This document shows positions 38,639 through 45,180 of a stretch of 64,000 bases of DNA, in pieces. Where the stretch lies: positions 496,001 through 560,000 of the forward strand of contig DASZBM010000010.1 of the NCBI GenBank assembly GCA_035944135.1, given 5' to 3'. The DNA is from Acidobacteriaceae bacterium. GTDB taxonomy: Bacteria > Acidobacteriota > Terriglobia > Terriglobales > Acidobacteriaceae. The notes below the pieces were generated by a model. That model saw only the letters and a list, made by a program, of their open reading frames with translations. It did not search any database and had not been told where the DNA came from. How positions within the stretch are numbered: the stretch's first letter is position 1; every line of letters starts with the position of its first letter. A program made the translations under genes and the position numbers.

Positions 38639-40777
38639 GTGCCGCCCCTCACCAACATCGAAGTCGACCGCAAGACCCCCGTCAGCGAAGCGGCCGCGGA
38701 GGCGAAGCTCCCATCCCTTCACGACTTCTTCTCCCCCGGCGGCATCCTCGCCCGGTCCTCCCTCGCCTTCGAGCACCGCCCCGGCCAATACGCCATGGCC
38801 AAGGCCATCGAGCAAGCCTTCGCCGACCGCCGCCATCTCATCATCGAAGCCGGCACAGGCACCGGCAAAACCCTCGCCTATCTTCTGCCCGCACTCCGCC
38901 GCGCCCGCAACGAGAAGCAGCGCATCATCATCTCCACCGGCACAAAAAATCTGCAGGAGCAGCTTTACTTCAAGGACATCCCGTTCCTCGAATCCGTCCT
39001 TGCCGACTCCGGCCCGCTCCGCGTCTGTTACATGAAGGGCCGCGCCAACTACCTCTGCAAGCAGAAGCTCTACGCCCTCCGCGACAACCCCATCCTCTCC
39101 GGCCTCGACGACATCTCGCAGTTCCACACCATCCTCCAGTGGGAGCACACCACCGAAACCGGCGACCGCGCCGAGATCGATGACCTCCCCGAATCCTCCG
39201 CGCTCTGGCACAAGCTCGACGCGCGCTCCGAGGTCTGTCTCGGCCAGACCTGCCCCAACTGGGAGCCCTGCTTCATCACCCAGATGCGCCGCAAGGCGCT
39301 CGAGTCCGACCTCGTCATCGTCAACCACCATCTCTTCTTCGCCGACCTCTCCATCAAGCAGCAGGCCGCCGGCGCCCCCGATGCCGGAATCCTCCCCGAA
39401 GCCGCCGCGGTCATCTTCGACGAAGCCCACGAACTCGAAGACGTCGCCTCACAGTACTTCGGCATCGCGCTCACCAACCACCGCTTCGATGAGCTCGCCC
39501 GCGACACCGAGTCCATGCTCCGCGCCAAAGGCGCCAGCTCCGCCGCCATCGAAAGCTCCACCGCCACCCTCCGCGAGCGCTCGCGCCTCTTCTTCTCTTC
39601 ACTCCCCGAGACCACCACCACCGCCCAGCCCGGCCGCATGGAGTTCACCGACCGCGCCGACTTCCTGGAATCTCATGGCGACTCCTACCTCGGCGCCGTC
39701 AATGCACTCACACGCCTCGAAGGCGAACTCGACCGCCTCCGCGACGTCGAAGAAGCCGCGGGCCTCCGCAAGCGCGCCGCCGACATCCGCGCGCACCTCA
39801 AATTCCTCCTCGAAGCCACCGATCCGAACACCGTCTTCTGGATCGAGCGCCGCGCCGCCTCCAACCTCCGCAACACCGCCCGCAATTCTCGCGAGCCAGC
39901 CACAAATCCGGGTGCCCCATTCATGACGACGGCTTCTTCGTCGTCATGGGTTGGGTCTTTGAACACCCACCTCCAGGCCACACCCATCGACGTCTCCCAG
40001 CTCCTCGCCGAGACCCTCTTCGCCAACTACAGCTCCGTCATCCTCACCTCGGCCACCCTCACCGTCGCCGACTCCGAACACAAACCCTCCTTCGAGCACC
40101 TCAAGAAACGCCTCGGCATCCCATTCCCCAAAGAGCTCATCGTCCCCTCGCACTTCGACTACGCCAAACAAGCGCTCCTCTATCTCCCGCAATACCTCCC
40201 GCCGCCGCGCCACCCCGACTTCCTTCCGCACGCCGCGGAAAAAATCCGCCGCGTCCTCGAAATCACCCGCGGCCGCGCCTTCTGCCTCTTCACCAGCTAC
40301 TCGCAGATGCGCGAGCTCCACGACCGCCTCCTCTGCGAGCTCCCTTACCCACTCCTGCTTCAAGGCACCGCCCCACGCCACGTCCTCATCCAGCAGTTCC
40401 GCGAAACCCCGAACGCCGTCCTCTTCGGCACGTCGTCGTTCTGGCAGGGAATTGATGTCCAGGGCGAGCAGCTCTCCTGCGTCATCGTCGACAAGCTTCC
40501 CTTCGCCGTCCCTTCCGACCCCATCATGAAGGCCCGCACCGACGCCATCACCGCCGCCGGCGGCAACGCCTTCAACGACCTCCAAATCCCTCAAGCCGTC
40601 ATTGCACTCAAGCAGGGCTTCGGCCGCCTCATCCGCTCGCTCACCGACCGCGGCGTCCTCATGCTCCTCGACTCCCGCATCCGCACCACCCGCTACGGCG
40701 CCACCTTCCTCGGCTCGCTCCCACCCTACCGCCGCACCGACGACATCACAGACGTTGAACGCTTCTTCGCAAGCTGA
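38639..40777 (+). CDS. dinG: DinG/XPD-family ATP-dependent DNA helicase
   Basis: A 712-residue iron-sulphur superfamily-2 helicase. Walker A AGTGTGKT is at residues 71-78; Cys140, Cys200, Cys205 and Cys211 fit the XPD-type [4Fe-4S] set; DEAH is near 261; the C-terminal motifs include LFTSYSQMRELHDR and QGFGRLIRS. It unwinds DNA 5'-3' in repair or R-loop removal. Start is GTG 38639. An in-frame insert near residues 421-443 (GAPFMTTASSSSWVG) is encoded by a palindromic element. Confidence 0.92.
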   Translation: MPPLTNIEVDRKTPVSEAAAEAKLPSLHDFFSPGGILARSSLAFEHRPGQYAMAKAIEQAFADRRHLIIEAGTGTGKTLAYLLPALRRARNEKQRIIISTGTKNLQEQLYFKDIPFLESVLADSGPLRVCYMKGRANYLCKQKLYALRDNPILSGLDDISQFHTILQWEHTTETGDRAEIDDLPESSALWHKLDARSEVCLGQTCPNWEPCFITQMRRKALESDLVIVNHHLFFADLSIKQQAAGAPDAGILPEAAAVIFDEAHELEDVASQYFGIALTNHRFDELARDTESMLRAKGASSAAIESSTATLRERSRLFFSSLPETTTTAQPGRMEFTDRADFLESHGDSYLGAVNALTRLEGELDRLRDVEEAAGLRKRAADIRAHLKFLLEATDPNTVFWIERRAASNLRNTARNSREPATNPGAPFMTTASSSSWVGSLNTHLQATPIDVSQLLAETLFANYSSVILTSATLTVADSEHKPSFEHLKKRLGIPFPKELIVPSHFDYAKQALLYLPQYLPPPRHPDFLPHAAEKIRRVLEITRGRAFCLFTSYSQMRELHDRLLCELPYPLLLQGTAPRHVLIQQFRETPNAVLFGTSSFWQGIDVQGEQLSCVIVDKLPFAVPSDPIMKARTDAITAAGGNAFNDLQIPQAVIALKQGFGRLIRSLTDRGVLMLLDSRIRTTRYGATFLGSLPPYRRTDDITDVERFFAS
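39922..39948 (+). repeat. Palindromic element inside dinG
   Basis: CATGACGACG (39922-39931) and CGTCGTCATG (39939-39948) are perfect complements around a seven-base loop. Flanks GGTGCCCCATT and GGTTGGGTC extend the symmetry with mismatches. The whole is read in frame as part of DinG; no stop is introduced. Confidence 0.7.
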
Positions 40778-45095: not shown

Positions 45096-45180
45096 CCACC
45101 CAAATCCGTCTTCCCACCCAAATCCGTCATCCTGAGCGGAGCCGGTTCACACCGTGAACCGGCGAAGTCGAAGGACCCCT
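45096..45180. repeat. Composite intergenic repeat with a 10-bp palindrome
   Basis: CCACCCAAATCCGTC occurs twice (45096-45110 and 45114-45128). The second copy runs into GTCATCCTGAGCGGA, then a perfect stem GCCGGTTCAC/GTGAACCGGC with a three-base loop (45141-45163), then GAAGTCGAAGGACCCC. This matches the GTCATCCTGAGCG...GAAGGACCC interspersed repeat seen in many acidobacterial genomes, here with an inserted palindrome. Confidence 0.7.

Follow-up and report, generated by a model that had tools for sequence, protein, structure and literature searches.

A palindromic repeat read in frame within a loop of a YoaA-like helicase gene of an acidobacterium, and its orientation relative to GC skew

The Rickettsia palindromic elements (RPEs) were reportedly described by Ogata in 2000 and 2002. 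As presented in PMC10969869, RPEs are palindromes that lie in frame in unrelated genes, where they add a peptide to the encoded proteins. In the account of Di Nocera et al. 2013 (PMC3733652), REPs are small palindromes which are mostly intergenic, some being located in frame within ORFs, and many of the intragenic REPs occur in DNA synthesis and repair genes; in two Xanthomonas species, different REPs were reported at about the same site of recB. The in-frame residence of REPs, often in DNA-repair genes, is already published (PMC3733652), as is that of the RPEs (PMC10969869). Where Granulicella mallensis is named in PMC3733652, it is in connection with a TIR-type tyrosine transposase and not with the repeat described here, and no palindromic or repeat elements of Granulicella were among the matches listed in the open-access literature. 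With regard to orientation, Bertels and Rainey 2011 (PMC3116915) describe tandem REP arrays of Pseudomonas with opposite orientations, forward or reverse, on the two sides of the genome, a Bordetella repeat is described as not co-oriented with the replication fork (PMC3110155), and a review states that the orientation of IS200/IS605 elements follows the direction of replication (PMC5371812). A REP orientation that is locked to GC skew was not found in the open-access literature searched.

In the window (i.e. the whole stretch of 64,000 nucleotides that was analysed), the sequence CCGGGTGCCCCATTCATGACGACGGCTTCTTCGTCGTCATGGGTTGGGT occupies positions 39908–39956 within an ORF of 712 aa (38639–40777, + strand). 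The sequence-only reading had placed at 39906–39965, inside this gene, which it named dinG, a palindrome of a kind usually found between genes, and had claimed that it leaves the reading frame unbroken. Such an element is indeed present at 39908–39961 (+), where a covariance model of the repeat family matches with 59.1 bits (E 4.3e-10), and the ORF runs through it with the frame kept. The core of the element, GGTGCCCC...GGTTGGGT, lies at 39911–39956 (+) and is predicted to fold into an imperfect hairpin (39914–39956, +), the 5′ arm of which (GCCCCATTCATGACGACGG, 39914–39932) is separated by the loop CTTCT from the 3′ arm (TCGTCGTCATGGGTTGGGT, 39938–39956); the G-T pairs of this predicted hairpin would become C-A mismatches if the opposite strand were to fold. 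The 16 codons 425–440 (39911–39958, +), of which the last is only partly composed of element sequence, are read as GAPFMTTASSSSWVGS. Additionally, a possible target site, CCACAAAT (39900–39907, +), abuts the element on its 5′ side and equals a weak consensus present directly 5′ of the copies found elsewhere in the genome. No second copy of the element was among the model or pattern matches listed for the window.

The encoded protein carries the Pfam domains DEAD and Helicase_C_2. Its earlier assignment to the DinG/XPD family stands, while the name dinG does not: the NCBIfam YoaA model was passed (729.2 bits, cut-off 680), whereas the protein scored below the cut-offs of the NCBIfam DinG models, and the gene (38639–40777, +) is for this reason called YoaA-like. 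In a predicted model of the protein (mean pLDDT 78), codons 408–439 (39860–39955, +) have pLDDT values below 50 and form a loop between two strands (398–406 and 441–449); according to this model, the element adds 16 residues (425–440) to a loop that is predicted to be disordered. Alignment of homologues around residue 420 indicated that the insert is absent from the 16 relatives in which the loop was parsed by script (29 relative loci; 13 of the 30 loci of the genus comparison were unparsed by the filter and left out), and it is likewise missing from all of the 80 loops taken from named relatives. Within the genus, the loop differs in both length and sequence, and the insert is therefore tolerated, as had been proposed, within a coding sequence, at a site that is a permissive variable loop and not the helicase core. 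In two relatives (G007 and G015), a different repeat-like insert (RPERSG) was observed in the same loop of YoaA. The solved E. coli DinG structure (6fwr) was considered as a source of support for the insert and rejected, since the YoaA loop aligns to it without a gap. Separately, in six genus genomes (G003, G004, G008, G011, G023 and G026) the matches to YoaA were split near residue 479, and alignment of two such loci (L052 and L053) revealed another insert near that residue.

The element belongs to a repeat family. A strict pattern, GGTGCCCCATTCAT-stem-ATGGGTGGGGT, retrieved 23 copies from the 4.43 Mb genome, while the backward-read control of this pattern retrieved none. A covariance model built from 22 of the strict copies, the YoaA copy among them, returned 93 rows at E≤1 in the same genome; its E-values are to be regarded as rough. 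Of these rows, 10 were antisense shadows that duplicated copies already listed and 12 were weak (E between 0.055 and 0.73), and without them 71 distinct copies, all with E≤0.0275, were used. This number represents a lower bound, because 150 of 2051 first-look candidates were scored by the model. The core of the element ranges from 33 to 76 nt, with a conserved 5′ end C(C/T)GGGTG (C in 61, C or T in 63 and G in 69 of the 71 copies) and a conserved 3′ end GGGT; neither a GTAG/GTGG nor a CGTC tag was found at these two ends in the 71 copies. A weak CCACAAAT-like consensus directly precedes the copies on their 5′ side. Copies with the same core thus occur elsewhere in the genome, most of them outside called genes, and the sequence is neither unique in the genome nor common to all homologues of the helicase. 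At E≤1e-4, copies were detected in at least 18 of the 28 genus genomes (own genome included), and a search of the 90 family genomes at E≤1e-5 under tighter filtering gave copies in 11 (own genome included), with at most six per genome elsewhere. The genus appears to be Granulicella, since Granulicella accounts for most of the best named relatives, the rest being other Acidobacteriaceae.

The relationship of the copies to genes was assessed with a gene finder trained on the window together with 40 stretches of 10 kb, 81% of which were called coding. Only 15 of the 71 copies were located at least 60 nt within a called ORF whose coding score was positive to either side of the copy, against 58 expected at random; like a REP, the element is a short palindrome present in many copies mainly between genes. 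Family matches support about 13 proteins with an internal in-frame copy, the element being on either strand. These comprise a set of conserved enzymes and repair proteins (YoaA, RecO, RecR, MutL, ClpB, ThiE, ThiL and HemE), an FGE/BNR protein, a PMT_2-type transferase, a Trans_reg_C regulator, a zf-HC2 anti-sigma-like protein and, with a match below the curated cut-off, an arabinofuranosidase-like protein. Four of the 13 hosts (YoaA, RecO, RecR and MutL) are DNA-repair proteins, which matches the published trend, albeit in a small number. The remaining two of the 15 copies are those in MurI and at C10:393190, the latter having no family match; the MurI copies are situated in an N-terminal extension that is perhaps untranslated. 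The element is in sense orientation in seven of the 13 genes and antisense in six. All seven sense copies are read in the frame GAP(F/H), the ThiL copy being doubled with its first half in another frame, and the antisense copies are read in the frames MNGAP (two) or EWGT (four); that these frames are open follows from how the ORFs were called. The 16-residue peptide of YoaA recurs identically in an unrelated ORF at C8:71691. Two further copies were noted. At C1:260973 the flank coding score failed, and the ORF at this locus (L157, 1867–2757), which has no Pfam or NCBIfam match, seems by eye to hold three different repeat-derived peptides. At C2:1113151 (L082), provided that the start was called correctly, the copy falls within the opening codons of the gene for an outer-membrane efflux protein and precedes a signal-peptide-like stretch.

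Comparison with solved homologues placed the element within extra sequence in RecR (query residues 132–160), HemE (residues 186–207), ThiE (a 13-residue gap) and ClpB (519–554), while the alignment of MutL stopped ahead of the linker that bears the element. The extra sequence in HemE and RecR exceeds the length of the palindrome. The HemE insert is absent in 16 of the 19 genus relatives whose loci were aligned. Furthermore, other repeats were identified in the same loops of relatives, namely in HemE of G007, in ThiE of G021 and G025, and in ClpB of G013 and G027; such sites shared between sister species may be either inherited or independent. Judged from sequence comparison, the element resides in frame in genes whose relatives lack it, as RPEs do.

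Matches to Y1_Tnp were obtained in 26 of the 28 genus genomes. In one relative (G021, locus L362), the repeat at 1651 (+) is followed by an ORF (1722–2249) containing MPNHVHLLL, with the HVH motif, and then by repeats at 2259 (−, overlapping the end of the ORF) and 2290 (+); in this genome a Y1/HUH transposase gene is accordingly flanked by the same repeat, as in REP/RAYT systems. In another (G015, L363), a similar transposase ORF lies between sister repeats, with the repeat under study beginning at 2067, 138 nt downstream. The own genome has two Y1_Tnp matches, at neither of which was a transposase gene directly flanked by the exact repeat. One of them adjoins three sister repeats, which by eye match GGTGGCCCATCC exactly or nearly so; the other (L054) is situated about 13 kb before the start of the window and has one internal TGA. 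The numbers of transposase matches and of copies do not run in parallel in the genus (11 matches and at least 5 copies in G022, as against one match and at least 40 copies in G013). On these sequence features the repeat is best seen as a putative REP element, though one without GTAG/CGTC tags, because it flanks a Y1/HUH (RAYT-type) transposase gene in one relative.

The copies follow a strand rule. When local skew was taken from flanks of 1.5 kb, leaving out the element itself, the C-rich strand proved to be the one that bears GGTGCCCC in 71 of 71 copies; these copies form 50 clusters at 10 kb, all 50 of which are single-strand and none mixed. In G007, the test covered the 22 of 38 listed copies for which there were loci, and all 22 obey the rule, which brings the total for the two clearly skewed genomes to 93 of 93 tested copies. 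In G002, seven of eight loci have near-zero skew and five of eight copies are in the expected orientation. The 30 best copies lie in DNA with a mean absolute skew of 0.257, versus 0.117 in a sample of 120 pieces, each of 3 kb. Large-scale flips occur on two contigs: on C2, the copies are minus up to 0.8 Mb (19 of 20) and plus beyond it (14 of 14), and on C10 they are plus up to 0.8 Mb (10 of 11) and minus beyond it (two of two). The exceptions (C2:98,933 and C10:157,471) sit in local blocks of reversed skew and obey the strand rule, copies and GC skew turning together in blocks of roughly 10–30 kb. Gene direction was ruled out as the cause of element orientation (seven sense versus six antisense of 13), and also as the source of the skew, which is regional, because opposite-strand neighbour genes within 10 kb have a common skew (r = 0.62). 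Within the window, skew is positive at about 0–13 kb, negative at about 14–46 kb and positive at about 48–64 kb, in blocks common to genes on both strands; a different palindromic repeat, starting CATCCTGAGCGGAG, is located at 45128 (+) in DNA of negative skew. Among other repeats in the sampled stretches, the rule is obeyed by GGTGGCCCATCC (5/5), GGTGCCCCACAT (3/3) and GGGTGCCCCATCC (2/2), and partly by CATCCTGAG (17/19) and CCGGGGTCCCC (7/9). dnaA (C4:30721) was rejected as an anchor for the origin, being on neither of the flip contigs, and leading and lagging strands are therefore only assumed from the fact that the leading strand is usually G-rich. On a chromosome with one origin, forks cannot alternate every 20 kb, and the skew blocks would therefore be the product of inversions. 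The strand fidelity fits single-strand transposition at forks, followed by such inversions.

We consider it likely, with a probability of roughly three in four, that the element is a non-autonomous repeat of the REP type that is moved by a Y1/HUH transposase of the RAYT kind, is strand-specific and was inserted in the YoaA loop. The transposase would move the element as single-stranded DNA, and one copy would have entered the loop of the helicase gene, where its stop-free frame would have given the protein about 16 residues in a disordered loop; selection would have let this presumably harmless insert stay. About a dozen other genes would have been hit likewise, at loops and linkers. As in IS200/IS605, insertion would be strand-specific, and copies would therefore keep a single orientation relative to replication strand asymmetry; this orientation may have been set by forks, and later inversions may have turned copy and skew together to give the local blocks. 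Palindrome, transposase link and strand rule would thus be jointly explained by single-strand transposition.

It is also conceivable, though improbable, that the strand rule is due only to a C/A-rich target motif with a higher frequency on the C-rich strand. In the surroundings of the copies, the C-rich strand has about six times as many CACAA (264 vs 43) and about ten times as many CCACAA (105 vs 10) as the other strand, and a weak CCACAAAT-like flank is present. However, the copies' own flanks predict agreement in 49.2 of 71 cases, whereas 71 were observed (P about 7e-13 under independence); the value of 49.2 rests on the weak motif, and were the target stricter, for instance ten to one, considerably more agreement would be expected. 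An explanation to which we give somewhat less credence still is that the element is a structured RNA or a terminator-like regulatory hairpin under selection, its presence in genes being incidental. Consistent with this, most copies lie outside called genes, and RNA of the GGTGCCCC strand of the YoaA copy folds better than its complement (−26.3 vs −21.8 kcal/mol) because the G-T pairs are kept; at least one G-T pair is present beside ATTC in 52 of 54 pattern-parsed copies, and Di Nocera et al. interpret the G-T pairs of REPs as pointing to a function at the RNA level (PMC3733652). Against it, no T-run follows the hairpin in the flanks of the copies, and the occurrence of both orientations in genes (seven sense and six antisense of 13) is not predicted by an RNA role. 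A known RNA family was likewise rejected, as Rfam searches of five loci gave three matches, all below gathering scores and none over the repeat. Finally, a chance resemblance between the repeat and an old helicase loop is very hard to credit, since, although the loop is variable within the genus, in length as in sequence, and aligns with that of E. coli DinG without a gap, the DNA fits the family model at 59.1 bits (as one of the 22 copies from which the model was built), an identical peptide is found in the unrelated ORF at C8:71691, and the insert occurs in 0 of 80 loops of named relatives.

With this element, the range of protein-decorating palindromes would come to include an acidobacterium, and the dozen conserved enzymes carrying it represent natural insertion experiments, with the same loops reused in sister species. 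The strand rule additionally provides a clean test for a link between REP transposition and the replication fork and, should there be one, a means of mapping inversions. More tentatively, and with some doubt on our part, each copy could be regarded as a lasting arrow that marks the lagging-strand template at the time of landing, which would make this strand-locked element a marker of inversion history as well as a supplier of loops at recurrent sites.

Compared with known systems, the repeat resembles the REPs of Di Nocera et al. in being a small, mostly intergenic palindrome with in-frame genic copies and G-T pairs in its stem, while it differs from those described there in having no GTAG or CGTC tag and a single orientation relative to skew (PMC3733652). 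RPEs, by contrast, are given as about 150 bp long and belong to an obligate intracellular alphaproteobacterium (PMC10969869), whereas the present core is 33–76 nt and its host a soil-type acidobacterium. As in the REP/RAYT systems described by Nunvar 2010 (PMC2817692) and by Bertels and Rainey 2011 (PMC3116915), copies of the repeat stand on both sides of a Y1-type transposase gene, in this case in a relative, but the GT(A/G)G head reported for those systems is missing, and the three sister repeats that adjoin a transposase gene in the own genome (G000) are in the same direction and do not form the inverted pair of REP/RAYT. Like IS200/IS605, as reviewed in PMC5371812, it may have an orientation set by replication-linked strand polarity (judged from GC skew for the present repeat), and it would likewise depend on a Y1/HUH enzyme; IS200/IS605 elements carry their own transposase, however, whereas the present repeat does not.
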